Program-made: the position numbers and the translations under genes
The notes under the pieces: generated by a model
What the model was told of the DNA's origin: nothing
Seen by the model: the letters and a program-made list of their open reading frames with translations, nothing else
The model's database searches: none
In this document: piece by piece, positions 3,089-43,083 of the stretch
How positions within the stretch are numbered: position 1 is the stretch's first letter
How the letters are laid out: each line of letters starts with the position of its first letter
Assembly (NCBI RefSeq): GCF_004343725.1
Contig: NZ_PTQW01000014.1
Coordinates: 62,001-126,000, forward strand
From: Treponema sp. J25
GTDB lineage: Bacteria > Spirochaetota > Spirochaetia > Treponematales > Breznakiellaceae
Direction of reading: 5' to 3'
DNA length: 64,000 nt

Positions 3089-4447
3089 ATGGCCATAAAA
3101 ACCTTTAAGGGCGGCATTCATCCGCCTGAGCGAAAAGTCGCCACCAGCGGGAAGGTCATTCAACGTATTCCGAGCCCTGCCCAGGTGGTGATTCCTATTA
3201 ATCAGCACTTTGGGGCCCCGAACAAGCCCCTGGTACAGGTAGGAGACACGGTAAAACGGGGACAAAAGATTGCCGATGGAGCAAGTCCCGGACCCATGAC
3301 CGTGCCAGTCCACGCTTCTATTAGTGGGATAGTAAAAAAAATAGAACCCCGCACCCAATCGAATAACACCGAAGGACTGTGTATAGTAATTGAAGCAAAT
3401 GGATCGCAGGAAGAAGCTTTTATGCCCCCCCTTGATGGCCTTGCCTGTTCCAAAGAGGAGGCCCTGCAGCGAATCCGGGAGGCAGGCCTTGTCGGTATGG
3501 GAGGCGCCGGGTTCCCCGTTCATGTTAAGCTGAATCCCCCACCGAATAAACCTATCTCCCTGGTTATCGCCAATGGGGCCGAATGCGAGCCCTACCTTAC
3601 CATCGATGAAGCCACCATGATTGAAGAGGCGGACAAGGTGGTTCAGGGGCTTCTCATCGTGATGAACATAGTAGGGGTCGATCGGGGTGTGATTGCCCTG
3701 GAAGATAACAAGGAACGGGCCCTTACCTCACTCCAAGAGGCCATTGCCCGCCATGGAAAAGGGAAAAACATTCAGGTGCAGCTTCTTAAAACCAAGTATC
3801 CCCAGGGGGGCGAAAAGATGCTTATCACCGCCATCACGGGAAAAGAGGTTCCCTCAGGGGGACTCCCGATGGATGTGGGGTGTGTGGTGCAAAATGTGGG
3901 GACCCTGAAGGCTATCGCGGAGGCCTTTTATGAAGGTAAACCCCTCATTGAACGGGGACTCACCGTTACTGGCGGGGCATGTAAGACTCCGAAGGATATC
4001 ATCGCCCCCATTGGAACCCTTGTTTCCGATATCCCCTCCTCAGAAATAGAACTTGATGAAGAGCATCTTGCAAAGGTGATTTTTGGTGGCCCCATGATGG
4101 GAACGGCGGTACCCCATTTAGGTATCCCTATCCAGAAAAACACCTCCGGCGTCGTGTTCATGACCCGCGAAGAATTCCAGCGGGACAATGACGAAGAGGG
4201 ACCCTGCATCCGCTGTGGTCGGTGTATTCGGGCCTGTGCCTGCCGGCTTTCTCCGGTGATCATGAATATTGCCTTAAAAACGGGAGACCTGGAAGCAGCG
4301 GCCCGTATCGGCCTTCTGGACTGTATCGAATGTGGGGCCTGTACCTATGTGTGTCCTGCCCATATTCAACTGGTCCAGCGCTTCCGGGTAGGAAAACAAT
4401 TACTGCGCAACAAGCGGGCCAAAGAAGCTGCTTTGAGTGCAAAATAA
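3089..4447 (+). CDS. rnfC: Rnf electron transport complex subunit RnfC
   Basis: 452 residues. RnfC is the peripheral NADH-binding subunit of the ion-pumping ferredoxin:NAD+ oxidoreductase. Visible are the glycine-rich GLVGMGGAGFPVHVKL segment (about residue 135), the ANGAECEPYLTIDE motif of the NuoF-like FMN/NADH domain, and two C-terminal 4Fe-4S motifs, CIRCGRCIRACAC (about residues 372-384) and CIECGACTYVCP (about 411-422). The second cysteine set of the first motif ends CACRLSP rather than the usual CP, still supplying cysteines. Length is normal for the short bacterial RnfC without the long C-terminal tail. It is the first gene of rnfCDGEAB, and the next gene starts 16 nt later. Confidence 0.96.
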   Translation: MAIKTFKGGIHPPERKVATSGKVIQRIPSPAQVVIPINQHFGAPNKPLVQVGDTVKRGQKIADGASPGPMTVPVHASISGIVKKIEPRTQSNNTEGLCIVIEANGSQEEAFMPPLDGLACSKEEALQRIREAGLVGMGGAGFPVHVKLNPPPNKPISLVIANGAECEPYLTIDEATMIEEADKVVQGLLIVMNIVGVDRGVIALEDNKERALTSLQEAIARHGKGKNIQVQLLKTKYPQGGEKMLITAITGKEVPSGGLPMDVGCVVQNVGTLKAIAEAFYEGKPLIERGLTVTGGACKTPKDIIAPIGTLVSDIPSSEIELDEEHLAKVIFGGPMMGTAVPHLGIPIQKNTSGVVFMTREEFQRDNDEEGPCIRCGRCIRACACRLSPVIMNIALKTGDLEAAARIGLLDCIECGACTYVCPAHIQLVQRFRVGKQLLRNKRAKEAALSAK

Positions 4448-4463
4448 AGGAGAAACAGAAAAG

Positions 4464-5534
4464 ATGGCAAACAATCAGAAACTCTTGATCCTTGCATCGA
4501 GTCCTCACTTTAGTTCTCCTGTCACTACCTCCGCCCTTATGGGGAATGTTATTCTGGCCCTTTTACCACTGACCATTTTTGGTATCTACCTTTATGGTTT
4601 TCCGGCACTGATTACGATTGTGGTCTCGGTAGCAACGGCGGTCCTTTCGGAAACCCTCTTTCGCCTTGTTACCCGTCAGGAATTGCGGTACAAGGACCTT
4701 TCCGCGGTAGTAACGGGGCTCCTTCTGGCGCTGGTCCTTCCCCCCTCTACCCCCTGGTGGATGACCGCCATGGGGTCATTCTTTGCCATTGTGGTAGCCA
4801 AGGAGTTTTTCGGGGGCCTTGGCGCCAACCCCTTTAACCCGGCCCTTATCGGGCGGGCCTTCCTTATCATGAGTTTTCCCGCCGCCCTCACCACCTGGCA
4901 TCGGCCGGTGGGCTTTTCCGCAGCCCTTACCGATGCGGTCAGTACCGCCACTCCCCTCAATATCATTAAAATGGGAGGCGCCATGGCCGACGTGGGGAAC
5001 AATCTCGTCCAATCGGGGCTCAGCCTTTCCTCAAACTATGGGTCGGTACTCCTTACCCTCTTTCTAGGGAATCGGGCGGGGTGTATCGGGGAATCTTCGA
5101 TACTGTTAATTTTGGTGGGGGCCTTTTACCTGCTCATTACCCGCACCATCGATTGGCGGGCCCCGGCGGCAATGATCGTGACCACCTTTATCGTAAGCTG
5201 GCTTCTGGGGATGGATGGCCTTTTTGGCATCCTTGCGGGGGGCCTTATGTTTGGGGCGGTGTTCATGGCCACCGATTACGTTTCTGCCCCCCTTACCGCC
5301 AGGGGAAAAATCATTTTCGGTATCGGGGCGGGGCTTATTACGGTGCTCATCCGGAAATGGGGGGGCTATCCCGAAGGGACCAGTTACGGAATCCTGATCA
5401 TGAATGCCTTTACTCCCTTCCTTAATCGGCTTATCCAGAAAAAATACGGCTTTGTGCCCCCGCAGAAGGCGCCCGCCGGAATATCCGGCAAAGGCCAAAG
5501 TGGTGGTAGTTCTTCCCAGGGAGGTTCAAAATGA
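4464..5534 (+). CDS. rnfD: Rnf electron transport complex subunit RnfD
   Basis: 356 residues from ATG 4464, chosen because AAGGAG lies 11 nt upstream; an in-frame start at 4437 would overlap rnfC. Polytopic membrane subunit of the NqrB/RnfD family with about nine hydrophobic segments. The motif DAVSTATPL carries the threonine that is covalently flavinylated (S-T-A-T) in this family. The C-terminus is a Gly/Ser/Gln-rich soluble tail (GISGKGQSGGSSSQGGSK), probably disordered. It overlaps rnfG by 4 nt (ATGA), indicating translational coupling. Confidence 0.95.
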   Translation: MANNQKLLILASSPHFSSPVTTSALMGNVILALLPLTIFGIYLYGFPALITIVVSVATAVLSETLFRLVTRQELRYKDLSAVVTGLLLALVLPPSTPWWMTAMGSFFAIVVAKEFFGGLGANPFNPALIGRAFLIMSFPAALTTWHRPVGFSAALTDAVSTATPLNIIKMGGAMADVGNNLVQSGLSLSSNYGSVLLTLFLGNRAGCIGESSILLILVGAFYLLITRTIDWRAPAAMIVTTFIVSWLLGMDGLFGILAGGLMFGAVFMATDYVSAPLTARGKIIFGIGAGLITVLIRKWGGYPEGTSYGILIMNAFTPFLNRLIQKKYGFVPPQKAPAGISGKGQSGGSSSQGGSK

Positions 5535-6130
5535 AGCAGATGGTTCGGCTGGGCCTCATCCTTGCGGCCTACGCAACCGTGGCCTGCGTGGGGCTGGCCT
5601 TTGTGTATACGGGGACCCAACAGGTTATTACGGAACGGCAACGGGCAGATCTGGAGCAATCCTTAAAAGATCTGTTTCCCCAGGGAGATCAATTTAAAGA
5701 AATCACCGGGGCCTTTTCCAGTTCTGACCCTCAGGTACAGTTCAAGAACCAGTACCTTATTCTTCAAGGGGACGAGCCCCTGGGGGTTGCAGTCCGGGCG
5801 GTAGGTTCAAGCTACGGGGGACCTATCACAGTATTGGTGGGAGTGACCAGAGAAGGCACGATTAGCGGCGTCAAAATCCTGGAAAACAAGGATACCCCCG
5901 GTCTGGGGGCCAATGCGGCTAATCCGAGCTATTTCGTCGATCGGCGCTCAGGAATAACCTTTTACGGTCAATTCAAGGGGAAATCGGTCCAGGATAAATT
6001 CCAGGTGAAAGAAGATGTGGTAGCCATTACGGCCTCTACCATAACGAGCAAGGCGGTAACCACCGTAGTAAAAGTAGCCAGTCAGGCCGCCTACGCATGG
6101 CTCACCAGCGAGGGAGGAAACACCAAATGA
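5531..6130 (+). CDS. rnfG: Rnf electron transport complex subunit RnfG
   Basis: 199 residues: one N-terminal membrane anchor (about residues 5-27) and an extracytoplasmic FMN-binding domain. The motifs ISGVKILENKDTPGLG and ITASTITSKAVT are typical. By alignment with S-G-A-T-x-T-S of other RnfG/NqrC proteins, Thr170 is the expected covalent FMN site; the flanking residues (T-A-S-T) deviate from S-G-A-T while the Thr and the following T-S are kept. In Rnf it passes electrons between the membrane flavins. It overlaps both neighbours by 4 nt. Confidence 0.93.
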   Translation: MKQMVRLGLILAAYATVACVGLAFVYTGTQQVITERQRADLEQSLKDLFPQGDQFKEITGAFSSSDPQVQFKNQYLILQGDEPLGVAVRAVGSSYGGPITVLVGVTREGTISGVKILENKDTPGLGANAANPSYFVDRRSGITFYGQFKGKSVQDKFQVKEDVVAITASTITSKAVTTVVKVASQAAYAWLTSEGGNTK

Positions 6131-6744
6131 AACGGTACCTTACCATTTTTAAAAACGGCCTTGTCCGGGAAAACCCGCTCCTCATGTTGATGATCGGTTT
6201 GTGTTCGTCCCTGGCGGTAACCACCGCCGCAGCAAACGGTGTAGGGATGGGGCTTTCCATGACCTTTGTGCTCCTCATGTCCGAGATAGTGATTAGCAGC
6301 TTCCGCAAGCTTATCCCCGATTCGATCCGTATCCCCGTGTTCATCATTGTCATCGCCGCCTTTACCACCGTCATCGATTACCTGCTTAAGGCCTATTTCC
6401 CTGACCTTTCCCGGGCCATGGGGGTCTTTATCCCCCTTATCGTGGTAAACTGTATTATCATGGGACGGGTGGAAGGCTTTGCGAGCAAACGGCCCATCCC
6501 GGAGGTTATCGCCGACGCCCTCGGTATGGGTTTGGGGTACACCTGGGTGTTATTGGGCATTTCCATGATTCGAGAGCTTCTTGGAAACGGTACCATTTTT
6601 AACATCCGGATCATGCCCGAAAGCTATCAGCCCATCATTTTCTTTATCCTTTCGCCGGGGGGCTTTTTGGTTTTTGCCCTCTTTATTTCATTCAATCTCT
6701 TTTTAAAATCCCGATTAAAAAACGGTGAGGAGGAGTGCAAATGA
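6127..6744 (+). CDS. rnfE: Rnf electron transport complex subunit RnfE
   Basis: 205 residues from ATG 6127, which overlaps the rnfG stop as ATGA and has AGGGAGG upstream; an in-frame ATG at 6097 lies inside rnfG and is less likely. Membrane protein with about six helices of the RnfA/RnfE (NqrD/E) family, with conserved NPLLMLMIGLCSSLAVTTAA near the start and GRVEGFASK in a loop. RnfA and RnfE form the inverted-repeat pair that binds an iron-sulfur cluster within the membrane; a cysteine is present in both half-sites (GLCSSL and VNCIIMGR). Confidence 0.93.
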   Translation: MKRYLTIFKNGLVRENPLLMLMIGLCSSLAVTTAAANGVGMGLSMTFVLLMSEIVISSFRKLIPDSIRIPVFIIVIAAFTTVIDYLLKAYFPDLSRAMGVFIPLIVVNCIIMGRVEGFASKRPIPEVIADALGMGLGYTWVLLGISMIRELLGNGTIFNIRIMPESYQPIIFFILSPGGFLVFALFISFNLFLKSRLKNGEEECK

Positions 6745-7316
6745 ATCTATTCAAAATCTTTATCTCTGCCCTGCTCATTGATAATGTCATATTGATGCGC
6801 TTCTTAGCCCTCTGCCCTTTTATCGGGATGAGTAGCGATGAAAACAAATCAGTAGGGATGGGTCTTGCTGTCACCTTTGTAACGGTCCTGGCCACGTCGG
6901 TAACCTGGCCTATCTATCACTTTATCCTGAAACCCCTGGGGCTCGAATTCCTTCAGATTCTTGTATTTATTCTTATCATTGCGTCCCTGGTACAGCTGGT
7001 AGAATTCTATCTTAAGAAAATGGTTCCTGCCCTGTATACCTCGATGGGGATATACCTGGCCCTCATCACCACTAACTGTGCAATCCTGGCGGTAACCTTT
7101 GATAACATCAGCAAGGGCTACTCCTTTCTGGAAGCCCTGGTGTACGCCGTAGGGGCGGCTTTAGGATTCCTCCTCTCCCTCTTACTCATGGCAGGAATCC
7201 GCAATCGTATCAAAACAAGTCCTATTCCTGCCTTTTTAAAGGGCACGCCCATTCTGTTTGTTTCTGCGAGCCTCCTCGCCATGGCCTTTATGGGCTTTTC
7301 GGGACTGGTTAAATAG
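6741..7316 (+). CDS. rnfA: Rnf electron transport complex subunit RnfA
   Basis: 191 residues from ATG 6741, which overlaps the rnfE stop (ATGA) and follows GAGGAGG. It is the partner of RnfE, with about six helices and the half-site cysteines FLALCPFIGMS and TTNCAILAV. NNLF-type N-terminus (MNLFKIFISALLIDN) is characteristic of RnfA/NqrE. An alternative GTG two codons upstream lies inside the ribosome site and is not preferred. rnfB starts 9 nt after its stop. Confidence 0.93.
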   Translation: MNLFKIFISALLIDNVILMRFLALCPFIGMSSDENKSVGMGLAVTFVTVLATSVTWPIYHFILKPLGLEFLQILVFILIIASLVQLVEFYLKKMVPALYTSMGIYLALITTNCAILAVTFDNISKGYSFLEALVYAVGAALGFLLSLLLMAGIRNRIKTSPIPAFLKGTPILFVSASLLAMAFMGFSGLVK

Positions 7317-7325
7317 GGGGAATCC

Positions 7326-8192
7326 ATGACTATCATACTTATCACCACTTTTTTTGCCCTGCTCCTGGCCTTTACCTTAGGGCTGGCGCTGGGATTTTTT
7401 AAAGAATTTTTCAAGGTAGAGGTAGATCCCCTGGTACAACAGGTGCGGGATATACTGCCGGGGGCTAACTGCGGTGCCTGTGGCTTCCCTGGCTGCGATG
7501 GATACGCCGCAGCCGTGGCAGGCCGGAGTACCGAGGTTACCCGCTGCGCCCCTGGAGGAAAGGCGGTGGCCGAGGCGCTTGCCCGTCTTATGGGAGTACA
7601 GGCCTCTGCGGAGGATGTGGTGGCCGTCCTGGCCTGCCAGGGTTCTAAAGAGCATGCCCCCCTTAAGGGTACCTACGTAGGAGTAAAAACCTGCCGGGCC
7701 GCTAAACTTTCCGCGGGCGGGACCAAGCTGTGTTCCTGGGGATGCCTTGGATACGGCGACTGTGTGGCGGTTTGCCAGTTTGATGCCCTTCATATGGGAG
7801 AAGATGGCCTGCCCCACGTGGACTACGATAAATGTACCGGTTGTGGCATGTGTATCGCCGAATGCCCTCAGCAGATTCTAAAGAAGGTTCCCAAGAATCG
7901 AAAAGGTTCCATGGTCATCTGTTCTAACCGAAATCCGATTAAGGCGATGGTGATAAAGACCTGTAAGGTAGGCTGTATTAAATGCGAAATCTGCGTAAAA
8001 AATTGCCCCGAGCAATGCATTACTATGGTTAACGGTATTCCTGAAGTCGACTACACGAAGTGTACCTCCTGTGGGGTTTGTGTGGCCAAGTGCCCCACCA
8101 AGGTGTTTAAAATGCTCCAGTATGATATCCTGGTAGGAACAACGATTGGAGAAAAGCGCCCACAAGAGGAAGAGGTTGTAGCGGTAAAATAA
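7326..8192 (+). CDS. rnfB: Rnf electron transport complex ferredoxin-like subunit RnfB
   Basis: 288 residues. An N-terminal membrane anchor (about residues 3-25) is followed by the 4Fe-4S domain CGACGFPGCDGYA plus a later Cys (about residues 50-75), then a ferredoxin region with four further cysteine groups: CSWGCLGYGDCVAVC, CTGCGMCIAECP, CIKCEICVKNCP and CTSCGVCVAKCP. This is the normal long RnfB, which accepts electrons from reduced ferredoxin. Last gene of the operon. Its 3' end, encoding VVAVK-stop, is repeated 63 nt downstream. Confidence 0.95.
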   Translation: MTIILITTFFALLLAFTLGLALGFFKEFFKVEVDPLVQQVRDILPGANCGACGFPGCDGYAAAVAGRSTEVTRCAPGGKAVAEALARLMGVQASAEDVVAVLACQGSKEHAPLKGTYVGVKTCRAAKLSAGGTKLCSWGCLGYGDCVAVCQFDALHMGEDGLPHVDYDKCTGCGMCIAECPQQILKKVPKNRKGSMVICSNRNPIKAMVIKTCKVGCIKCEICVKNCPEQCITMVNGIPEVDYTKCTSCGVCVAKCPTKVFKMLQYDILVGTTIGEKRPQEEEVVAVK

Positions 8193-8259
8193 AAAACAGC
8201 TATTTTGAACGGGCCCGCAATGGTTTCCCTGTTTCCCGTTGTAGCGGTAAAATAAAAAA
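8175..8259 (+). repeat. Direct repeat of the rnfB 3' end
   Basis: A 22-nt sequence covering the last codons and stop of rnfB (8175-8196) recurs exactly at 8238-8259. The offset is 63 nt and the intervening bases are unrelated. The second copy lies outside any gene. Confidence 0.8.
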
Positions 8260-8332
8260 ACGGACCCTTGTTAAAACTGCACCATCATAGTGTGGAAGGG
8301 AATGCGGAGGAGCAGAAAGAGAAAGGGGCTAA

Positions 8333-8362
8333 AAGAGGGCCTGACAGGGGCCCTCTTCTTTG
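8333..8362 (+). terminator. Probable terminator of the rnf operon
   Basis: AAGAGGGCC (8333-8341) pairs with GGCCCTCTT (8349-8357), 7-nt loop, followed by the T-rich CTTCTTTG. It lies 140 nt after rnfB and just before the next gene. Confidence 0.6.
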
Positions 8363-8390
8363 AAATGCCCCAGGAATAAAGGGGGCCTCT

Positions 8391-9803
8391 ATGCCACAGA
8401 AGGGGGCAAGACGATTACTGTTTTACATTGAATCTCTCGTTCTTTTTAAAAATCTCAAGGAGGCTCCCTTTTTTGCTCCCCTGTATCGATTGCTTTCCCG
8501 CATAGCCCAACTGGAAGAAAGTATCACGTCGGTACCGCTCCACCTGCCGGACAAGATTGGTCTTATCCGTTTGTGGACCGACGTTATGCATTTTGTTCTT
8601 TCTGAAGAGCGTTCACTTCACGAACTCATTATCGATTTTATTCTCCACGATGAAAACCCCTTAACCCTTGCAGCCGAGGCGCTCGCACCGGAATCAGGGC
8701 ATATCGCCGGGGATAAGACCCAGAGGGGGAAGTCCCTTGCGCCAGCGTTGCTGGAACAGGCCCGCCTTGACCTGCTTTACCTTCAGACAATCGCCTCTTG
8801 CACCACGGTAGAGTTGATCGAGCCCATTCTCAGTCTTTTCAGTGATCGGCTTACCCTCGATATAAGCCAGCGTATCAAAAAGGAAGAGGCCATCCTCTCC
8901 CACTTTTTTCGCCATTCGGGGGAGCACCCCCTTTTTCCCTCCCATAAAAGCTGGGACACCGCTTTAGAGGGGTTGCTGGCCTATTGGAAGAGCGAGGGGG
9001 TTGGCCATCTCGGCAAGCATTCCTTCCTTGTCTGGAAACCAGAGGAAGAGATGCCCCTTCAACCTGCCCTCCTGCCTGACCCTATACGACTTTCTCAGCT
9101 TTTTGGATACGAGGCTCAACGGGCAATAGTTCTTGCCAATACCCGGCGCTTTATAAGCGGACACCGGGCAAACAACCTTCTTTTGTACGGAGATCGAGGG
9201 ACGGGAAAGTCTGCCACCGTTAAAGCGGTATGCAACGAATTCGCCGGGGAAAAACTTCGACTCGTCGCAGTAGACAAACAGCATCTCCAGGATTACCCCC
9301 GGATAATTAACACCTTAAGTGACCGCCCCTATCGATTCATCCTGTACATTGACGACCTTTCCTTTGAAACCCTGGATGATTCCTACACAGGACTTAAGGC
9401 CCTTCTTGAAGGGGGCGTCAATCAGCGGCCGGATAACGTGGTAATCTATGCTACCAGTAACCGGCGACACCTTGTCCGGGAAAGCAGGGCCGATCGACCC
9501 GATACGGCCGCTGCGGCGGCGGCCCTGGAAAGCGGCGACATGCGGGCCTTTGACACCATGCAGGAACAACTTTCTCTGGCAGACCGCTTTGGCCTTACCG
9601 TGGTGTTCAGCACCCCCGGCCAGGAAGAATATCTTACGATTGTCCAGAAGATAGCTCAGGAGCGGGGTCTTACCATACCAGGGACAACCTTGAGAGAGCA
9701 GGCCCTTCGCTGGGAAAAGTGGTTCAATGGCCGCTCTCCCCGCAGCGCCCGCCAGTTTGTCGATTGGATCGAAGGGGGGCTGGATTTTCCCTGGGATAGT
9801 TAG
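8391..9803 (+). CDS. DUF815-family AAA+ ATPase
   Basis: 470 residues. An N-terminal helical region of about 210 residues precedes an AAA+ core with Walker A YGDRGTGKSATVKA (about residues 264-277) and Walker B FILYIDDLSFE (about residue 320), then VIYATSNRRHLV (sensor 1) and LADRFGLTVVFSTP (arginine-finger region). The LLYGDRGTGKS and YATSNRRHL strings are characteristic of the DUF815 family, whose function is not established. No membrane segment. It stands alone between the rnf terminator and the convergent surE, and its transcript probably ends near the dyad at 9827-9851. Confidence 0.88.
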   Translation: MPQKGARRLLFYIESLVLFKNLKEAPFFAPLYRLLSRIAQLEESITSVPLHLPDKIGLIRLWTDVMHFVLSEERSLHELIIDFILHDENPLTLAAEALAPESGHIAGDKTQRGKSLAPALLEQARLDLLYLQTIASCTTVELIEPILSLFSDRLTLDISQRIKKEEAILSHFFRHSGEHPLFPSHKSWDTALEGLLAYWKSEGVGHLGKHSFLVWKPEEEMPLQPALLPDPIRLSQLFGYEAQRAIVLANTRRFISGHRANNLLLYGDRGTGKSATVKAVCNEFAGEKLRLVAVDKQHLQDYPRIINTLSDRPYRFILYIDDLSFETLDDSYTGLKALLEGGVNQRPDNVVIYATSNRRHLVRESRADRPDTAAAAAALESGDMRAFDTMQEQLSLADRFGLTVVFSTPGQEEYLTIVQKIAQERGLTIPGTTLREQALRWEKWFNGRSPRSARQFVDWIEGGLDFPWDS

Positions 9804-13771: not shown

Positions 13772-13800
13772 TAATAGTTTAAATACCAGGAAGTACTTCT

Positions 13801-14691
13801 ATGAAAAAGAGCTACAGTCAAATACCATTACTAGTATTCTTATTAGGGCCAGCGTTAATTCTTTTTTCTTTGTTTGTTATCTTCCCGGTTTTTCAAGCTG
13901 CTTATTTTAGTTTGTTTAAATGGAATGGTCTCGGGCCGCTTGTTGATTTTCGGGGATTGAAGAATTTTACAGTGCTTTTTAAAGATGCTATTTTCCATAA
14001 AGCGATAATTCATAACATTATTATCATGATTGTATCTCTTGTTATCGAGATACCCCTCGCTTTATACGCAGCTCTTATTATTTGTAATAAAGATTTTAAG
14101 TTTGCCCTGGTTTTTCGTACTTTTTTCTTCCTGCCATATATTCTTTCCGAAGTTATAACAGGGATTCTCTGGCAATTTATCTATAACCCCCAGTACGGTT
14201 TAGTAAAAGCCTTATACACATTTTTTGCTCCCGGTGCACCGGTACCAGCAATTCTTGGGAACCCTTCAACAGTGCTTGCGGGTATTCTTGTTACCATTAT
14301 CTGGAAATATTTTGGATTTCACATGTCTATCCTGATAGCAGGGCTTCAGGATATTCCTGAAGAAATAAAAGAGGCAGCAAAAATCGACGGGGCATCAGAA
14401 AGTCAGATAACCCGTAAAATTGTTTTGCCTCTCATCCGTTCGACCCTATTAATATCTATTTTCTTTTCGATTGTGGGCTCCTTTCAAGTATTCGATGTTG
14501 TCTGGGCAATGGGTAAAGGAGATCCAGTGAATTCGGCTGAGACGATGGTCACCTATCTTTATAAATTCGGACTTCAAAGATTCAATATTGGATATGGAAG
14601 TGCTGTTGCTGTTGTTATATTCCTTTTCACTTTAATCTTTAGCATTATTTACAACAATCAATTGATGAAGAATGAGGAGAAACAAATATGA
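13801..14691 (+). CDS. Sugar ABC transporter permease (MalF-like)
   Basis: 296 residues, about six membrane helices, CUT1 family. The EAA loop that docks the ATPase is visible as DIPEEIKEAAKIDGASESQITRKIVLPLI (about residues 184-212), with the typical EAA---G spacing. The N-terminal FPVFQAAYFSLFKWNG is usual for MalF-type subunits. It overlaps the next permease by 4 nt (ATGA), so both are translated together. Imports the ligand of the binding protein encoded upstream. Confidence 0.93.
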   Translation: MKKSYSQIPLLVFLLGPALILFSLFVIFPVFQAAYFSLFKWNGLGPLVDFRGLKNFTVLFKDAIFHKAIIHNIIIMIVSLVIEIPLALYAALIICNKDFKFALVFRTFFFLPYILSEVITGILWQFIYNPQYGLVKALYTFFAPGAPVPAILGNPSTVLAGILVTIIWKYFGFHMSILIAGLQDIPEEIKEAAKIDGASESQITRKIVLPLIRSTLLISIFFSIVGSFQVFDVVWAMGKGDPVNSAETMVTYLYKFGLQRFNIGYGSAVAVVIFLFTLIFSIIYNNQLMKNEEKQI

Positions 14692-15536
14692 AAAAAAAGA
14701 ACCTGTCAATTTCTTTCTCTCGTCGAGTCGTTCAATATACATTTTGCATTATACTTTCATTTATTGTGCTTATTCCGCTGTATATGGGATTTGTAGGTGG
14801 ACTCAAATCAAATGGACAGCTCCTGACAGATCCTGTAGGGCTCCCCAATCCTCCATATTATAACAACTATATTGATTTACTAACTGGTTCGGTTGGAACT
14901 TTTTGGCGGTCCCTTTTTAATTCTATTCTTGTAGCCGCAGGAACTGTAATACTCACTCTTATTGTTTGTGTAATGGCAGCGTTCGCTCTTGCTCGCGTCC
15001 AATTTCGTGGAAGAGAGATCATTAAAAATTACTTTATGCTCGGACTTCTGTTTCCCCTGGCAGTTGCAATTCTTCCCCTTTACTTACAGGTAAAGAATCT
15101 TAAACTGCTTGATAATTATTTTGGGGTAATACTCCCCCAGGTAGCTTTTCAAATACCAATGACGGTACTTCTCTTGAGAGGGTTCTTTTTACATATACCT
15201 AAAGACTTAGAAGACGCCTGCTCGATAGATGGATACGGCCCCCTCGGTTTTTTAATTAACATGGTAATTCCTCTTTCTACACCAATCATTGCAACAAGTG
15301 CTGTTATTGTTCTTGTGGCAAGTTGGAACAATTTCTTTTTGCCCCTACTTGTGTTTAATACTGAAGCCTATTACACGTTACCGATGGGGGTTATGAATTT
15401 TCAAGGGCAACACGCTTCAGATTGGAATTTAATTCTTGCTTATTTAAGTCTTGCCATGCTTCCAGCACTCATTCTTTTTGTCACTTCACAAAAGTACATC
15501 GTAGCAGGACTCACCGGCGGTGCTATTAAGGGGTAA
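14688..15536 (+). CDS. Sugar ABC transporter permease (MalG-like)
   Basis: 282 residues, about six membrane helices. EAA loop PKDLEDACSIDGYGPLGFLINMVIPL (about residues 169-194) and the C-terminal motif QKYIVAGLTGGAIKG are characteristic of MalG-type permeases. Follows its partner with a 4-nt overlap after AATGAGGAGA. No ATP-binding gene follows; the next gene is convergent. The importer therefore probably uses a shared ATPase (MsmX/MalK type) encoded elsewhere. Confidence 0.93.
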   Translation: MKKKNLSISFSRRVVQYTFCIILSFIVLIPLYMGFVGGLKSNGQLLTDPVGLPNPPYYNNYIDLLTGSVGTFWRSLFNSILVAAGTVILTLIVCVMAAFALARVQFRGREIIKNYFMLGLLFPLAVAILPLYLQVKNLKLLDNYFGVILPQVAFQIPMTVLLLRGFFLHIPKDLEDACSIDGYGPLGFLINMVIPLSTPIIATSAVIVLVASWNNFFLPLLVFNTEAYYTLPMGVMNFQGQHASDWNLILAYLSLAMLPALILFVTSQKYIVAGLTGGAIKG

Positions 15537-35864: not shown

Positions 35865-38606
35865 ATGAAAAAACTGGTGTGCCTATTTTTGGCGGTTCTC
35901 ATCGCAGGTGCCGCCTGTAGCAACAAACCAAAAGGGAACGCTTCTTCGACGCAGAACCCTTCTGGAATTCAACAAGATGATATCTCAGACGATACCTCAG
36001 TTTCAGAGGATCCACCGGCGTCGGATAATCCCCTTGATCTTTTCCTGGAGGAACTTCCAGAACCACAGAGTAATTTCCAGCTTTCCCGCTTTACCAAAAG
36101 CTATCGGGGGAACGTACAACCCAATTTCCCTTCCCGGTATCTGAGTGAGCCCTTGGAATTCAAAGATATTCCCCTAAAGTCCCCCTTCCCGGGTAAAAAG
36201 ATAGCCGTGGTAGGATATGACAGGGCGAAACTCTATGCCGATGTGTTCAAATCGGGGAAAAATAAGAATGCCTCGGTAAGTTCCTTGCAGGTGCTTACCA
36301 GCATCCCCATCGGAACGGTCATCCCTATTCTGGGGGAATACAAGGCCGCTCCCAGCGACGAAAACTATCAAAGTGATTTATATAATTTTGAAAAAGAATG
36401 GAACTATTTTTACCGGACCGAATACCAGGGAAAGGAGGGGGTCGTCTTTGGGGCGGACCTCATCCTGGGGGATAAAAAGCCAGAGGCGGATCTCATGCGG
36501 CTCTCCTATTACTACACCAAACCGACGGCTTCCCCGGCTTTTATCCGTACGGTCGGTATGAAAGAACTCGCCGCTGACCACGAACAGGTACTTCGGGAAA
36601 ACTTCATCGCCTTTGCCGAAGCTCCTCCCTACCCCCTTGATCTTGAACACCCCGACGATCTCGTCAGCCTCTACCAACAGGCCTTTAACGAGCGTTCCCA
36701 GACTGTTTTTATTACCACAGACCTCTTAGTTCACAGCCTGCATCTTCTCTTTGATCGGATGCTCTCAGACACGGAAGATAGAATTTTCATCCCCCGTCTA
36801 AAGCATCTCCTGGAGGGGGCCCTCTCAGAAGTGAACAAGCGCATCGAGAAAGACACCAAGGAAGTGCCGGCCTATTCAGAGGCCCTTACCCTCGCAAAAA
36901 ACTACCTTTTCCTCGCGAAGGCCCTCCTTGCCATGGCCCTGCCGCCGGTACCTAACGAATACCACCCCTCCGAACTTGAAGATAATCCCCTTTCTGAGAA
37001 GGACACCCAGAAAGCCATAGAAGCCCAGCTCCCCCCTTCTCTCCAGGAAGAATTCAGGCTTATCATGGAAGCCCAAGGATTTAGTCTTTCCCCCAATTTT
37101 GGCTACCGGGAAGACTACTCCCAGTTCATTCCCCGGGGACATTACACAAAAAGTACACGCCTTAAGGCATACTTTCGCACCATGATGTTCCTGGGAAGGA
37201 TCAATTTCTATCTTGATTTTTCAACCCCCGAAGCGGCCAGGATCAGCAACCAATTGGGGCCCGCGGCGCTTATCCTTTGCCAGGCGCTCCAGGCCTCAGG
37301 GCCAAGGGGATCCCTTAAGGAACTGTGGCAGAGCCTCTTTGATCCCATTTCCTATCTTATTGGGGAAAGCGATGATCTTAACCTCTACGATATTGAAAAG
37401 GCGGAGCCCGCCATTGCCCGACTGGATATCCCCCAACTGTTCAAAACAGGAAAAATAGAGGAATACCTTAAGAACCTGGCAAAAAAACTCCGCTCTCCGC
37501 GCATTCAAGGGAACATTACCTTTGGGAACCCCAGCGGGGCCAATACCCCCAATTCGGGAGACCGCTTTGGGGAGCCCCCCCGGGGATGGCGCCTCTTTGG
37601 TCAACGCTTTGTGCTTGATTCTTCCTGGTTCGACCGACTAACGGGAGAATACCGGACCATGCCCAGCGGTCTTGATGTGGCCGCCAGTCTAGGTTCAAAA
37701 ACGGCCTACGAGTTCCTTACCGCAACCCGGGAGAAGTTCCCCCCCTATGCTCAGGCCCTGGAGGATATCCGAAAAGAAGTGTCTACCATGAAGGAAGATG
37801 CCTGGTGGCAAACCTTTTACCTGGGCTATCTTGATACGGTACGGCGCATTCTGACGTTTGAACGGGGCGCGGGGTTCTACTTTACCCAGAAACCCCTGTG
37901 GAACATTAAGAGTCTGCAGAGCGGCCTTGCGGCCTGGGCAGAACTCAGGCACGACACAATCCTCTATGTGAAACAGAGCTATGCCGAAGCAGCCGGGGGG
38001 GACGGCATTGAAGCTACCTACCGAACCATCGATTTTCCCCGGCCGATTCACTACGTGGAACCCAATCTGCGCTTCTTCTATGACCTTACCAGTTTACTGG
38101 AACGCTCTCTCCCCCTCCTCAAAAAATACGAATTCCTTACCCCCCAATGGATGGGCAAGTTCGAAGCATTCCTGAATATTCTGGATAAACTCACCGTCAT
38201 AGTAGAAAAGGAGGTGGTAAACAACCCCATTAGTGTCGATGAAAACGAGTACCTCGCCACCGTGCCTTTTCTTATCGCCCGGATAATCCGACCCGATGGA
38301 GATGTCGATACCGGAGACACAAGCAAATACCAGATGGCCATGGTGGCCGATGTGCATACCGATGGGGATAATGGCCAGGTTCTGGAAGTGGCCACCGGCA
38401 AGCCCTTTATGCTGTACGTGGCCCTGAATGATGGCCAGGGGGGCAAGCGCATCGCCGTTGGCTTTACCTACAGTTACTACGAGTTCCCCCATCCCATGAA
38501 TGACCGCCTTACCGACGAAAAATGGAAGGCCTTTATCTACGGGAATCCTTCTAAAAAGGAACTGGAGGCAAAACGGCCCGAGTGGCTCCGGGGACTCATG
38601 CCCTGA
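35865..38606 (+). CDS. DUF3160 lipoprotein
   Basis: 913 residues from ATG 35865, chosen because GGAGG precedes it and it begins a clean lipoprotein signal: MKKLVCLFLAVLIAGAAC, lipobox AGAAC (Cys18). A Ser/Asp/Pro-rich linker (about residues 20-65) leads to a large DUF3160 domain with characteristic stretches VFITTDLLVHSLHLLFDRML (about residue 285), LTLAKNYLFLAKALLAM, FRTMMFLGRINFYLD, and WAELRHDTILYVKQSY (about residue 690). C-terminal MVADVHTDGDNGQVLEVATG also fits. Function of the family is not known; it would be anchored in a membrane facing outward. The MEMO-domain lipoprotein gene follows 22 nt later, so both may be one unit. Confidence 0.88.
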   Translation: MKKLVCLFLAVLIAGAACSNKPKGNASSTQNPSGIQQDDISDDTSVSEDPPASDNPLDLFLEELPEPQSNFQLSRFTKSYRGNVQPNFPSRYLSEPLEFKDIPLKSPFPGKKIAVVGYDRAKLYADVFKSGKNKNASVSSLQVLTSIPIGTVIPILGEYKAAPSDENYQSDLYNFEKEWNYFYRTEYQGKEGVVFGADLILGDKKPEADLMRLSYYYTKPTASPAFIRTVGMKELAADHEQVLRENFIAFAEAPPYPLDLEHPDDLVSLYQQAFNERSQTVFITTDLLVHSLHLLFDRMLSDTEDRIFIPRLKHLLEGALSEVNKRIEKDTKEVPAYSEALTLAKNYLFLAKALLAMALPPVPNEYHPSELEDNPLSEKDTQKAIEAQLPPSLQEEFRLIMEAQGFSLSPNFGYREDYSQFIPRGHYTKSTRLKAYFRTMMFLGRINFYLDFSTPEAARISNQLGPAALILCQALQASGPRGSLKELWQSLFDPISYLIGESDDLNLYDIEKAEPAIARLDIPQLFKTGKIEEYLKNLAKKLRSPRIQGNITFGNPSGANTPNSGDRFGEPPRGWRLFGQRFVLDSSWFDRLTGEYRTMPSGLDVAASLGSKTAYEFLTATREKFPPYAQALEDIRKEVSTMKEDAWWQTFYLGYLDTVRRILTFERGAGFYFTQKPLWNIKSLQSGLAAWAELRHDTILYVKQSYAEAAGGDGIEATYRTIDFPRPIHYVEPNLRFFYDLTSLLERSLPLLKKYEFLTPQWMGKFEAFLNILDKLTVIVEKEVVNNPISVDENEYLATVPFLIARIIRPDGDVDTGDTSKYQMAMVADVHTDGDNGQVLEVATGKPFMLYVALNDGQGGKRIAVGFTYSYYEFPHPMNDRLTDEKWKAFIYGNPSKKELEAKRPEWLRGLMP

Positions 38607-38628: not shown

Positions 38629-39594
38629 ATGAGGGAAACGCCCTATGGTCAGAAAGAGGCCCCCCTCCTGAAGGGGGGGCGATGGTGGTTTGCGCTGCTT
38701 TGCATAGGCCTCAGCGCTTGCACCAGGGGAGAGCCAGTGGGGCTCCCCGCCGGGACGGTTTTCTGCTCCGGCCCAAAGCACCTGAGCGAAACCGCCCTCG
38801 ATCAGGGAAAACTGCGCCGGGTCCTTCAGCCGCCCCCTATTCCGGGGGCCCAGTGGCTTTCTCCCGCAGAAAACAAACCAGCCCCCTATGGGGCTTTCCC
38901 CGTGGCGGGCATTACCAGCCATCACCTATTGGTTTCCTGGTACATCGATCGTTTTTTTGCGGATCTGAAGGAGCTTCGCAAGAAGCCGGCGCCCCCAATT
39001 CACACCTTTATCGTGGTATCGCCAAAACATTTTATGCAGGGAAAGGAACCAATCGCCCTCTCAAAGGTCCCCTGGGAAACAGGCCTTGGTAGGGTAACGG
39101 TTAACCTCTCCCTCGCAGAGGGCATACGCACATCCCTTGGCATACCCTGGGATCCCGACTCATTTGCAGGAGAACACGGGATAGGCATCCCCGTGGCTTT
39201 TATGACCAAGCATTTTCCCCGGGCCCGGATGGTCCCCATCGTTCTTACAACCCCCTCGTTTCGTATGGCGAACCTTACCACCCTGGCCGAGACTATTGGG
39301 CGGGAGATGGCCCGGGACCCGGGGATATTCCTCCTTATCTCGAGCGATTTTAGCCATCAAGGAAACCTGGAACTTACCCAACAGCGGGATGCCCAATCCC
39401 GGGAGGCCCTTACGTACTTAACCCCAGCGCGGGCCCTAAAGGTATGTTGCGACAACAATGCGGGGATGATCCTCCTTTCCCTGGTGTTAGAACAGCTACA
39501 GCGGGGAAAGTCCGTTATCGCCGCCCATACAAGTGGCTATGAGGTGGTGGGTATAACCGAGGACATCACCAGTTATTTTTTCTGTTATTTTTAG
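38629..39594 (+). CDS. MEMO-domain lipoprotein (AmmeMemoRadiSam system protein B type)
   Basis: 321 residues from ATG 38629. The N-terminus has a basic, short hydrophobic segment and lipobox LSAC (LLCIGLSACTRG, Cys about 30), unlike ordinary cytoplasmic MEMO proteins. The MEMO fold follows: AGITSHHLLVSWYIDRFF (metal-binding His region), FIVVSPKHFMQG, GEHGIGIPVAFMTKHFP (about residue 180), IFLLISSDFSHQGN and AAHTSGYEVVGITED. MEMO proteins resemble non-haem iron dioxygenases. Convergent with an AMMECR1-domain lipoprotein gene, and directly after a DUF3160 lipoprotein gene. The cognate radical SAM gene is not in this window. Confidence 0.88.
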   Translation: MRETPYGQKEAPLLKGGRWWFALLCIGLSACTRGEPVGLPAGTVFCSGPKHLSETALDQGKLRRVLQPPPIPGAQWLSPAENKPAPYGAFPVAGITSHHLLVSWYIDRFFADLKELRKKPAPPIHTFIVVSPKHFMQGKEPIALSKVPWETGLGRVTVNLSLAEGIRTSLGIPWDPDSFAGEHGIGIPVAFMTKHFPRARMVPIVLTTPSFRMANLTTLAETIGREMARDPGIFLLISSDFSHQGNLELTQQRDAQSREALTYLTPARALKVCCDNNAGMILLSLVLEQLQRGKSVIAAHTSGYEVVGITEDITSYFFCYF

Positions 39595-39624
39595 TCCCTC
39601 ACAGGCTCAGCCTGAAAAGTCGTA

Positions 39625-39656
39625 GGGCCCTCACGTACCAGAAGTGAGGGGGCCCC
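39625..39656. terminator. Hairpin between convergent MEMO and AMMECR1 genes
   Basis: GGGCCCTCAC (39625-39634) pairs with GTGAGGG-GGCCC (39644-39655) with one unpaired G run. No T tract follows on either side, so it is only a probable terminator. Confidence 0.4.
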
Positions 39657-39728
39657 CTGATATTCCCCAGCAGCGGCATCCATCAGAAATAATACCCCTC
39701 TCCCATTCCCCTAAGGGCGTGCCTGCTT

Positions 39729-40430
39729 TTACTCCCGTCGAGGGGCTTCCCCCTCTTCCTGCATAAAGGGCTCTTTCCACTCCTTAACCGATGCCCGATA
39801 CAACACCACGCCCTTATCACGCCAGGCACCCTTCGGAAGCCCCTCCTTTTTGCAGAGAGCCTCCAGGTAGGCCCTTTTAGTCCAGCCATGTTCCCGGGCG
39901 AGGGATGGCTGCATCAGCACAGAACCCGCGGGATGTACCAGGTACACCAGTTCCTTCCCAAGGGAAAAATCCTCAGGCCCCTTCATAGGTACCAGGGGCC
40001 CCACAATACACACTTCAATGGCCAGGTCTGGCGCTTCTTCTTTACGCAAAGGCTCGTAGCGGGCATCGTGGAAAGCCGCATCCAGGGCCGCAAGGCGAGC
40101 CCCCAGCGCCAGGTCCCCCACCCCCTGGTAAAAGGCCTGGCAGCCCCGGGGCTTTCGGCCTGCCACAAAACGGACAATAATCCCCTGACGCTCGGCGGTG
40201 TAGGGATAATCCTCCCAGCGGGGGGGTGGCCCTTCCTGCCAGGCCTGCCATACCGCCGAACGGGCCTCCATTACCAGGTGTTGGAGAAGCCGCCGGTCTT
40301 CCCCAGAAAGGGGCGCCGGGCTCACGTCGGCGGCGACTTCCCCCGAACAGCCAGCCAGTAGCCCCATCAGCAAAAACACAGGGAGTGATAGGAACATCGC
40401 CCTTTTCCAAGCCCTCAGGACACTTCTCAT
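39729..40430 (-). CDS. AMMECR1-domain lipoprotein (AmmeMemoRadiSam system protein A type)
   Basis: 233 residues from ATG 40430. Basic start, hydrophobic core AMFLSLPVFLLMGLLAGC and lipobox LAGC (Cys about 28), so exported and lipid-anchored, unlike typical cytoplasmic AMMECR1. The domain covers about residues 45-225: LQHLVMEARSAVW, GIIVRFVAGRKPRGCQAFY (the conserved LRGCIG region), AALDAAFHDARYEPL, and YLVHPAGSVLMQPSLAREHGW. Its biochemical role is unknown; association with MEMO domains is well established. No Shine-Dalgarno sequence; TACAAT on the minus strand ends 6 nt before the ATG. Confidence 0.87.
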   Translation of the reverse strand: MRSVLRAWKRAMFLSLPVFLLMGLLAGCSGEVAADVSPAPLSGEDRRLLQHLVMEARSAVWQAWQEGPPPRWEDYPYTAERQGIIVRFVAGRKPRGCQAFYQGVGDLALGARLAALDAAFHDARYEPLRKEEAPDLAIEVCIVGPLVPMKGPEDFSLGKELVYLVHPAGSVLMQPSLAREHGWTKRAYLEALCKKEGLPKGAWRDKGVVLYRASVKEWKEPFMQEEGEAPRRE

Positions 40431-40559
40431 AGGGGTATTGTACCACAAAAGAGCTTTCTATCTATCCGGTAAAAAGGTCTTCCTTCGCTCCTCTGAGTTT
40501 TTTTACTCATCCGAAGGGAAGGGTCTCCTCTTTTGAACGCCAGCCATCCTTATTCCTTA

Positions 40560-40722: not shown

Positions 40723-43083
40723 ATGCACATACAACAATACGAAATTCAGGGGATGACCTGTAGCGCCTGCGCCCGGGCGATAGAGCGGGCCGTCAAAAAA
40801 CTTCCAGGGGTCCAGGAAGGGGTTGTCAATTTTGCCAGTGAAAAACTCCTGGTCCAATTCGATGAAAGCAAGGTAAGCCCCGAAGCCATCATGACCGCCG
40901 TACAGAAAGCGGGCTATACCGCCAGCCTCCCCTCCGCCAGCGAGGATACCCACCAGGCAGCGAAGGATCGGGAACAGGCCAGTCTCCGGCGCCGCCTTAT
41001 CGGGGCTGCTCTTTGTACGCTCCCCCTCCTCTATCTTGCCATGGGTCCCATGGTGGGTCTGCCGGTGCCGGCTATCTTCAACATAGAAAAAAATCCTCTT
41101 CCGGCCGCCCTAATCCAATTACTCCTGGTGGTACCGGTTCTTTTTGCGGGTCGTCGGTTTTATATCGATGGCTTTCGGGCCATAGTCCACGGGGGGCCCA
41201 ACATGGACAGCCTCATTGCCCTAGGGACCAGCGCGGCCCTCCTGTATAGTCTCTACGAAACCATACGCCTTTTCCAGGGAGCCCATCATGGGAACCATGG
41301 ACTGTACTATGAAACGGCGGCCACCATCATCACCTTGATCCTTTTAGGGAAAACCCTGGAAAACCGCTCCAAAGGCCGGGCAAGCGAGGCGATTAAGAAA
41401 CTGATGCGGCTGCGTCCCAAGACAGCCCTCATCATCCGAGAGGGCCGGGAATTCGAGGTGCCCGTAGAATTCATTAACCCGGGGGACCGGGTTCTAGTAA
41501 AACCGGGAACCACTATCCCCGTCGACGGCATGGTTGTGGAAGGTTCCAGCAGCGTCGATGAATCGATGCTTACCGGCGAAAGCCTTCCCGTCGAAAAGGG
41601 CACGGGGAGCCCCGTGTATGGAGGAACCCTGAACAATCAGGGGATCCTTGTTATCGAAGCCACCAAAGTAGGCTCAGAAAGTCTTCTTTCCCAGATTATC
41701 CATCTGGTGGAAACCGCCCAGGGGTCCCGGGCCCCCATTGCCCGACTGGCGGACCAGGTATCGGGGGTCTTCGTACCCATAGTGGTGGCCATCGCCTTTC
41801 TTTCGGCCCTTGCCTGGTACCTGGCAGGACAGGATATCTTCTTTAGTCTTACCGTCCTTGTGGCGGTCCTGACTATCGCCTGTCCCTGCGCCCTGGGTCT
41901 CGCTACCCCCACGGCCATCATGGTGGGAAGCGGACGGGCCGCCGAATTGGGAATCCTCTTTAAATCAGGGGAAGCCCTGGAACGGGCCCACACTATCAAT
42001 CTAGTCGCCCTGGACAAAACGGGCACCATAACCGAGGGGAAACCCCGGCTTACCGACCTGTGGACAGCCCCTCAAGAGAAAGGCCTTTTTGATACCACTG
42101 TCCCAGAATCCAACGGCAGACCTGCCCAGGGGCCGCTCCAGACGAGTTCCTCAGAGGGTTTTCTTACTGGAGAGGTCCCCGGATTTACGGAAAGCTGGTT
42201 GCTACGTCTTGCCGCCTCCCTTGAGAAAGCATCGGAACATCCCCTCGCCTCTGCCATTGTCCAGGCGGCTCAGGAACAAAAGCTCGAACTGCTGCCGGTT
42301 CAGGACGTACAGGCCTATCCGGGCAAGGGAATCGAGGGTACCGTCGAACACGATGCCGCGCCCCATACCCTCTTCGTGGGGAACCGGGTTTTTCTGGAAG
42401 AAAGGGGGGTCCACCAAAATGAAGCCTTTGCTGCAGGCATGTCCAAGGCCGAAACCCTGTATCAGGAAGGGAAAACGGTGCTCCATGTGGCCCTGGACGG
42501 TCAGTATCTGGGACTTCTCGCCGTAGCGGACACCCTGCGACCCACGAGTAAAGGGGCTATCGAACACCTTAAGGCGGCGGGCATTACCACCGTCCTCATA
42601 AGCGGAGACCATCAACATACCGCAGAGGCCATTGCAGCGCAGGTAGGGATTGAGCGGGTCTTTGCGGAGGTGCTCCCCCAGGATAAGGCCGCAATTGTCC
42701 AACAGCTAAAGGAAGAAGGGTTTCGGGTTGCCATGGTAGGAGATGGAATTAACGACGCACCGGCTCTGGCCAGCGCCGACGTGGGCATCGCCATTGGGGC
42801 CGGCACCGATATAGCCATGGAAAGCGCCGATATTGTGCTGGTACATAGCGATCCCCGGGATATTCTTACGGCGCTTCAGATTTCTCGGCGGGTTATGCGG
42901 ACCATCAAACAAAACCTGTTCTGGGCCTTTGCGTACAACGTCCTGGGCATCCCCATTGCGGCGGGACTCCTCCATGTGTTTGGGGGTCCCCTCCTGAACC
43001 CCATGCTTGCCGCGGCGGCCATGTCCTTCAGTTCTGTCTCGGTGGTTCTCAATGCGCTCAGATTACGATACTATAGGGGATGA
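40723..43083 (+). CDS. copA: Copper-exporting P1B-type ATPase
   Basis: 786 residues. One N-terminal heavy-metal domain with GMTCSACAR (CxxC, about residues 10-18), then eight predicted membrane helices. Catalytic parts: GESLPVEKG (actuator, TGES), [10 protein letters not shown] (about residue 387, the CPC metal motif), DKTGTITEG (phosphorylated Asp about 431), EHPLASAIV (HP motif), and [20 protein letters not shown]. The CPC motif with YN and MxxSS in the last helices ([20 protein letters not shown]) defines Cu+ specificity. GGAGGAACTCCT precedes the ATG. Single-gene unit ended by the strong terminator at 43162. A low-similarity loop (about residues 447-485) interrupts the P domain before the N domain. 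Confidence 0.95.

Follow-up and report, generated by a model that had tools for sequence, protein, structure and literature searches.

The window analysed here is a stretch of 64,000 nucleotides from Treponema sp. J25 (assembly GCF_004343725.1, contig NZ_PTQW01000014.1, positions 62,001 to 126,000), in which three adjacent genes code for predicted lipoproteins of the DUF3160, MEMO and AMMECR1 families (Table 1). MEMO and AMMECR1 are ancient proteins found from bacteria to humans and linked to human disease and cancer. They are normally intracellular, and to our knowledge no biochemical function has been agreed upon for either of them. In the window, the DUF3160 gene stops 22 bases before the MEMO gene on the same strand, and the stops of the convergent MEMO and AMMECR1 genes are 134 bases apart. 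An earlier note on this DNA had described the latter two as convergent neighbours, with correct coordinates and strands, and had rightly placed a DUF3160 lipoprotein next to them. Based on the analyses below, the three genes belong to a conserved spirochaete cassette that would anchor MEMO and AMMECR1 as lipoproteins to the outer face of a membrane, beside the DUF3160 lipoprotein.

Table 1. Genes, motifs and sites of the cassette, in window positions
Feature	Position	Strand	Evidence or remarks
DUF3160 gene (predicted lipoprotein)	35865..38606	+	PF11369 506.8 bits; ATG start; lipobox-like Cys at residue 18
SH3-like (bacterial SH3b) region of DUF3160, model residues 110-205	36192..36479	+	AlphaFold2 model
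MEMO gene (predicted lipoprotein, 321 residues)	38629..39594	+	TIGR04336 71.5 bits, PF01875 59.7 bits; signal segment ending in LSAC
MEMO lipobox L28-S29-A30-C31	38710..38721	+	Sequence rule; Cys column invariant in the 19-row alignment A1
MEMO His98, counterpart of MEMO1 iron ligand H49	38920..38922	+	66/66 exported MEMOs; aligned to 7kq8
MEMO His134, counterpart of MEMO1 H81	39028..39030	+	66/66 exported MEMOs; aligned to 7kq8
MEMO Cys274-Asp275 (Cys is the counterpart of MEMO1 C244)	39448..39453	+	Cys 55/65, Asp 65/65 exported MEMOs
AMMECR1 gene (predicted lipoprotein, 233 residues)	39729..40430	-	PF01871 88.4 bits; signal segment ending in LAGC
AMMECR1 lipobox L25-A26-G27-C28	40347..40358	-	Sequence rule
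AMMECR1 Arg95-Gly96-Cys97 signature core	40140..40148	-	[RK]GC in 25/25 exported type-1 rows
Promoter-like site, extended -10, before the AMMECR1 ATG	40437..40464	-	Consensus scan only

The window MEMO passes the cut-offs of both its families (26 bits for TIGR04336 and 27 for PF01875), and AMMECR1 that of PF01871 (25 bits). The AMMECR1 protein falls short of the stricter equivalog TIGR04335 (AmmeMemoSam_A; 70.7 bits, cut-off 99).

All three window proteins have a basic, hydrophobic start that ends at a lipobox-like Cys (GAAC in DUF3160). The N-termini of MEMO and AMMECR1 read MRETPYGQKEAPLLKGGRWWFALLCIGLSAC and MRSVLRAWKRAMFLSLPVFLLMGLLAGC, and that of DUF3160, MKKLVCLFLAVLIAGAAC, is preceded by the ribosome site AAAGGAGG. 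Export was called throughout with a sequence rule of our own, applied alike to the exported sets and to cytoplasmic controls. A lipobox called for a start codon 11-45 residues before the Cys, a small residue at -1, a hydrophobic stretch and at least one Lys or Arg, and an anchor for an 18-residue hydrophobic window with no lipobox. By this rule, the MEMO and AMMECR1 proteins of the window display the n-region, h-region and lipobox Cys of lipoproteins, in agreement with what the earlier note had read from their LSAC and LAGC motifs. The DUF3160 protein is scored as 'anchor' despite its GAAC motif, because the Gly at -3 falls outside the rule.

A scan of genome contigs with the single protein P0001 returned no relatives, and these were found by an alignment-based scan. 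We thus assembled 67 loci (designated by L numbers), all but one of spirochaete kin, with 52 found by scanning 84,980 species genomes, 5 from an order sample of 146 genomes, 9 deeper phylum members and the window itself. Except for L075 (labelled 'bacterium') and L112 (Patescibacteria), the 52 scan loci come from Treponema or other spirochaetes, and the set includes 8 pairs of near-duplicates more than 90% identical. The MEMO proteins have a lipobox in 54 loci and an anchor in 11, one is incomplete (L111), and the sole MEMO with neither (L113, 4938-5760) has its gene split between two frames. Leaving out L111, an export segment is present in 65 of the 66 testable MEMOs, and several of the anchors (L070, L073 and L076) end in a Cys rejected by the rule. 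Among the 26 linked AMMECR1 proteins, 25 are exported by the same rule (23 with a lipobox, one with an anchor and one by fusion to an exported MEMO), and the remaining one, L140, still shows NISC. No cytoplasmic MEMO (0/13) or cytoplasmic AMMECR1 (0/10) scored positive. The search for lipoboxes that the earlier note had proposed, run here on relatives, came out in favour of export. The DUF3160 gene of L056 (6172-8959) is split between frames like the MEMO gene of L113, perhaps through decay or assembly error. Row L029 of alignment A2, which had been translated in a wrong frame, was discarded.

The signal segments might be unused if translation started at internal codons, which would leave both proteins in the cytoplasm. 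Internal starts, considered in the earlier note as an argument against export, do exist. In the MEMO frame of the window, GGGGAGAG is followed by a GTG at residue 37, and two candidate starts, GTG36 and ATG54, come after the Cys of AMMECR1. Furthermore, no Shine-Dalgarno sequence precedes the AMMECR1 ATG. Since an extended -10 (TACAAT, 40442-40437) places the expected transcript start at about this ATG, a leaderless AMMECR1 mRNA is possible, but a consensus scan found six such promoter-like sites in the region for 3.4 expected. Against internal starts, the hydrophobic segment is kept in all but one of the testable MEMOs although its sequence varies, sometimes from lipobox to anchor, and the cytoplasmic paralogues are devoid of it. 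We consider it very improbable that both proteins stay inside the cell.

Analyses of the genetic environments, which the earlier note had suggested searching for DUF3160 neighbours, revealed an even tighter association than that of MEMO with AMMECR1. In 64 of the 65 loci with room for it (62 counted by script, L096 and L100 added by hand; L105 and L111, which begin at a contig end, were left out), the gene directly upstream of MEMO, in the same orientation, codes for DUF3160. The only locus with room but devoid of DUF3160 is L112. AMMECR1, scored within the DNA stretch around each locus, was found in 26 of the 67, where its gene is convergent and downstream (13 loci), divergent and upstream of DUF3160 (12 loci) or fused to MEMO (L064). 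Thus, DUF3160 and MEMO form the core, with AMMECR1 as a frequent but not constant member. Judged from gene order, DUF3160 is the most constant partner of these MEMOs and not a mere neighbour. In the phylum sample of 296 genomes, all 24 strong matches to the MEMO profile (E <=8.5e-37) adjoin DUF3160 genes, and the order sample has the cassette in 19 of its 146 genomes. The genes outside the cassette vary by genus and include those for pyruvate kinase, an M48 protease, an aspartyl-tRNA synthetase-like protein and others. The Patescibacteria locus L112 codes for a membrane-anchored MEMO (4806-5678) with the HH and Asp features described below, and neither DUF3160 nor AMMECR1 was found in its 10.7 kb of DNA.

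In quick maximum-likelihood trees, 39 type-1 exported MEMOs (the cassette members and L112) lie on one side of a branch with a Shimodaira-Hasegawa-like approximate likelihood ratio test (SH-aLRT) value of 90, and the 25 exported type-1 AMMECR1s are likewise set apart by a branch, with a value of 99. The branch that holds all exported MEMOs together has a support of 76, which neither affirms nor dismisses such a group, so that export may have arisen once or several times. By these trees, the exported MEMOs of the cassette are a subfamily of their own. The closest relatives of the window proteins (38% identity for MEMO, 36% for AMMECR1) are both found in L064, in a single exported chain. A second exported form, a fused MEMO-AMMECR1 chain of 500-538 residues, is present at 12 loci (L149, L152 and L154-L163). 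The rule scored three of these as lipobox, eight as anchor and one as neither (L161, which reads ITFSC); L162 has no Cys. For L149 and L152, the two fused loci with wide flanks, the search out to ~8 kb found no DUF3160. Exported MEMO lipoproteins of 537-571 residues (L136-L139, and also L032, L033, L034 and L041) have a C-terminal half with no family assignment and the cassette-type Asp, with no DUF3160 in the surrounding DNA. The possibility that L032, L033, L034 and L041 are MEMO-AMMECR1 fusions was rejected, as Pfam gave MEMO only.

The conserved export signals, the exported fused chain of L064 and the second exported fused family all support the existence of an extracytoplasmic version of MEMO and AMMECR1, as predicted from their sequences. 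The extracytoplasmic system proposed in the earlier note thus holds for these two proteins, but not for the whole AmmeMemoRadiSam trio, whose radical S-adenosylmethionine (SAM) component is encoded elsewhere. There is no radical SAM gene in the window (contig C14), as the note had remarked, and the TIGR04337 matches of the genome are on contigs C3 (over the cut-off) and C37 (below it). C3 also codes for a cytoplasmic AMMECR1 of 196 residues with no signal, and three further MEMO genes are found on C46, C29 and C56. With these genes on other contigs, the exported proteins represent a paralogous module with no radical SAM enzyme of its own. In the order sample, 18 of the 19 cassette genomes have a radical SAM protein over the cut-off, never beside the cassette (0/18), and another AMMECR1 is likewise present in 18 of the 19. 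The exception, G142, has a single copy each of MEMO and AMMECR1, located in the cassette, and its 97% complete draft genome gave no match to radical SAM. In most cells with the cassette, the cytoplasmic set with radical SAM would be a paralogous system distinct from it. L149 carries a fused exported MEMO-AMMECR1 gene (6969-8498) and a cytoplasmic MEMO and AMMECR1 pair (13782-15194) on one contig, ~5 kb apart. In the order of the window, the cytoplasmic MEMOs L035, L037, L039, L040, L042 and L043 have lost the His that corresponds to H192 of human MEMO1, and two of them have Asn in place of Asp. The cytoplasmic MEMO itself thus appears to be drifting in this order.

With the mixed profile A5, almost the entire domain could be aligned to human MEMO1 (7kq8; E 5.3e-34). 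Searches of PDB sequences with P0001 (phmmer) and with profile A1 gave chance matches only, and P0003 has no relative among them. According to the accessible part of PMC11081632, the iron ligands of MEMO1 are H49, H81 and C244, with H192 and D189 near the metal but not ligands. The counterparts of all three ligands are present in the window MEMO (H98, H134 and C274). Glu182 and His183 are invariant in the exported MEMOs, like the two ligand His (66/66 each), and so are Asp240 and His243, the counterparts of D189 and H192 (65/65). The third ligand is more variable, with Cys274 kept in 55 of 65 proteins, whereas the adjacent Asp275 is found in all 65. In a joint alignment, this position is Asp in 39/39 type-1 and 4/4 of the 540-residue exported MEMOs, Gly in 12/12 fused exported forms, and Gly (10), Ser (2) or a gap (1) in the 13 cytoplasmic MEMOs. 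At the sequence level, the two His and the invariant Asp could make up a 2-His-1-carboxylate site, with the Asp one alignment position off the Cys. In AMMECR1, LRGCIG, which we take to be the family motif, is found in 9/10 cytoplasmic and 12/12 fused exported rows. The window protein has kept the RGC core, with flanks changed to PRGCQA. All 25 exported type-1 proteins have [RK]GC, and the residue before it is Pro in the window and Asp or Glu in the other 24. We infer that the pockets of both proteins are functional and that Asp may have taken over from Cys as the third metal ligand of MEMO.

Together, these features lead us to a reading that we hold to be somewhat better than even: the cassette would code for a membrane-anchored, extracytoplasmic metalloenzyme module acting on an envelope substrate. 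We are much less sure of its particular chemistry than of the module itself.

Alternatively, the exported MEMO might not be an enzyme but a periplasmic lipoprotein that binds Fe(II) or Cu(I) to sequester or deliver the metal, in partnership with DUF3160 and AMMECR1. The corresponding site of human MEMO1 binds iron and copper (PMC11081632; PMC9477392, in the parts available), and the protein showed no dioxygenase activity towards the substrates assayed (PMC11081632, same limit). A gene for a copper-type (CopA-like) P-type ATPase, named by eye from its motifs, is located at 40723-43083 on the + strand of the window, opposite to AMMECR1 and ~290 bases from its start. However, this neighbour was not seen in the other typed neighbourhoods, and we set it aside as a functional link. 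In addition, 10 of the 65 exported MEMOs no longer have the Cys ligand. Asp240 and His243, whose MEMO1 counterparts are dispensable for metal binding, are invariant, which suggests catalysis. A role limited to metal handling is thus unlikely.

A special case of the metalloenzyme module would be an exported 2-His-1-Asp dioxygenase that has regained the carboxylate ligand set of LigB-like enzymes and oxidizes aromatic or similar molecules outside the cytoplasm. The Asp beside the Cys position in all 43 type-1 and 540-residue exported MEMOs, where cytoplasmic proteins have Gly or Ser, is consistent with this proposal, as is the Glu found at the C244 position in LigB, DesB and aminophenol dioxygenase (PMC11081632, as far as available). 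Nevertheless, the LigB profile PF02900 gave only 13.2 bits with the window MEMO (E 0.048, cut-off 26.3 bits), and the Asp, read from sequence, is one alignment position off the Cys. Many carriers of the cassette are presumably anaerobes, in which O2 chemistry is unlikely. Altogether, we regard a dioxygenase as quite unlikely.

Another special case stems from the partner domains. At least 12 exported AMMECR1s have an extra N-terminal domain, with DRH, DxHxD and DxD motifs invariant in 12 rows. A structural model of the L073 protein (mean predicted local distance difference test score, pLDDT, 90) matches AMMECR1 1vaj in its C-terminal part (Z 19.9, root-mean-square deviation (rmsd) 2.3, 170 residues aligned), and the closest match after AMMECR1, for the N-terminal domain, is the peptide arginase OspR (8brp; Z 14.5, rmsd 3.3, 177 residues aligned). 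Based on this model, the N-terminal domain adopts the ureohydrolase/peptide arginase fold, including the dinuclear metal motifs. MEMO, AMMECR1 and the arginase-fold domain might act on a peptide or protein after its secretion and modify it within the envelope, in the way that peptide arginases modify ribosomally synthesized and post-translationally modified peptides in the cytoplasm. The resemblance to OspR and the invariant metal motifs argue for such a maturation role, but the window AMMECR1, which consists of the AMMECR1 domain alone, and most cassettes have no arginase-fold domain. We give this proposal little credence as a general explanation.

In an AlphaFold2 model of DUF3160 (mean pLDDT 79), the N-terminal region is SH3-like and is accompanied by a large helical part. 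Low-probability fold matches to PolF and to helical bundles were not used. The family is tabled as a 'secreted enzyme' (arCOG03316) in the accessible part of PMC4158269.

Returning to the metalloenzyme module, we envision the following arrangement. The DUF3160 and MEMO lipoproteins are encoded in tandem and joined in about two-fifths of the loci by an exported AMMECR1, sometimes with the arginase-fold domain. The proteins would be held at a membrane, on its periplasmic or its outer face. There, MEMO would bind Fe(II) or another metal via two His and Asp and/or Cys and carry out redox chemistry or hydrolysis on a molecule of the envelope, with AMMECR1 assisting through its conserved Arg-Gly-Cys. 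DUF3160 might hold the module at the cell wall through its N-terminal part, similar to SH3b domains that bind the wall, or might itself be the main enzyme. In its fullest form, this would be a hitherto undescribed spirochaete enzyme complex acting on a substrate of the cell envelope, independent of radical SAM. It would consist of a MEMO whose metal site has been switched (to two His and Asp, Cys being optional), an exported AMMECR1 (in some cases arginase-fused) and DUF3160, and we put it forward only tentatively, as possible rather than probable. If true, the chemistry that MEMO and AMMECR1 share cannot need SAM, nucleotides or tRNA, as the complex would work outside the cytoplasm.

A number of observations weigh against this scheme. 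The internal GTG of the window MEMO leaves the sequence-based choice of start unsettled in this genome, so that the case for export is carried by conservation in relatives. AMMECR1 is absent from the DNA stretch around 41 of the 67 loci and is thus not essential to the module. Conversely, in the phylum sample, 7 of the 31 genomes with DUF3160 over the cut-off have no such MEMO. Loss of Cys274 in some exported MEMOs implies that their metal and chemistry may differ from those of MEMO1, and the absences in G142 rest on an incomplete draft genome. The SH3 match of DUF3160 is weak (LytB 4q2w, VIA-align Z 7.8, below 8; rmsd 2.4, 66 residues aligned), and a fold search with this protein gave no PDB match at E <=0.001.

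The cassette differs from known systems in several respects. It shares with AmmeMemoRadiSam (TIGR04335, TIGR04336, TIGR04337) the MEMO and AMMECR1 families, often adjacent or fused, the His pair and Arg-Gly-Cys. In contrast, it is exported by our rule, is not linked to radical SAM and has DUF3160 as a partner. It also has an Asp beside the Cys ligand and, ahead of RGC, an acidic residue (or Pro, in the window) where AmmeMemoRadiSam has Leu. The window MEMO has the counterparts of H49, H81, C244, D189 and H192 of human MEMO1 (7KQ8, 3BCZ), but MEMO1 is cytosolic and needs C244 for iron, whereas the Cys is optional among exported MEMOs, which have an HH motif where HAGY stands in MEMO1. The class III extradiol dioxygenases LigB and DesB have a fold related to that of MEMO (PMC11081632, in the part available) and a carboxylate near the third ligand position, but the window MEMO misses the PF02900 cut-off. 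Unlike OspR (8BRP) and other ureohydrolases, with which it shares fold and metal motifs, the N-terminal domain of the at least 12 AMMECR1s is AMMECR1-fused and exported, and it is absent from the window protein. The arCOG03316 entry agrees with the cassette DUF3160 in family and secretion, but the accessible part of PMC4158269 gives no link to MEMO, to which the cassette protein is tied.

We found no published exported MEMO or AMMECR1 in a literature search, which most subscription journals lie outside. A 2019 survey of the PCAD-Memo superfamily in JBC may mention exported forms. An exported version narrows the options for these proteins to reactions that take place beyond the cytoplasm, separately from radical SAM, with a substrate in the envelope or outside the cell. 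Handles on that chemistry are offered by the invariant Asp next to the optional Cys, by the acidic change near the Cys of AMMECR1 and by the two partners, the arginase-fold domain and DUF3160. Furthermore, DUF3160, a large family with no known function, is now firmly tied to a partner.

Elsewhere in the window, the genes at 3089-8192 (+ strand) resemble those of an Rnf electron-transport complex, as judged by eye from their translations.

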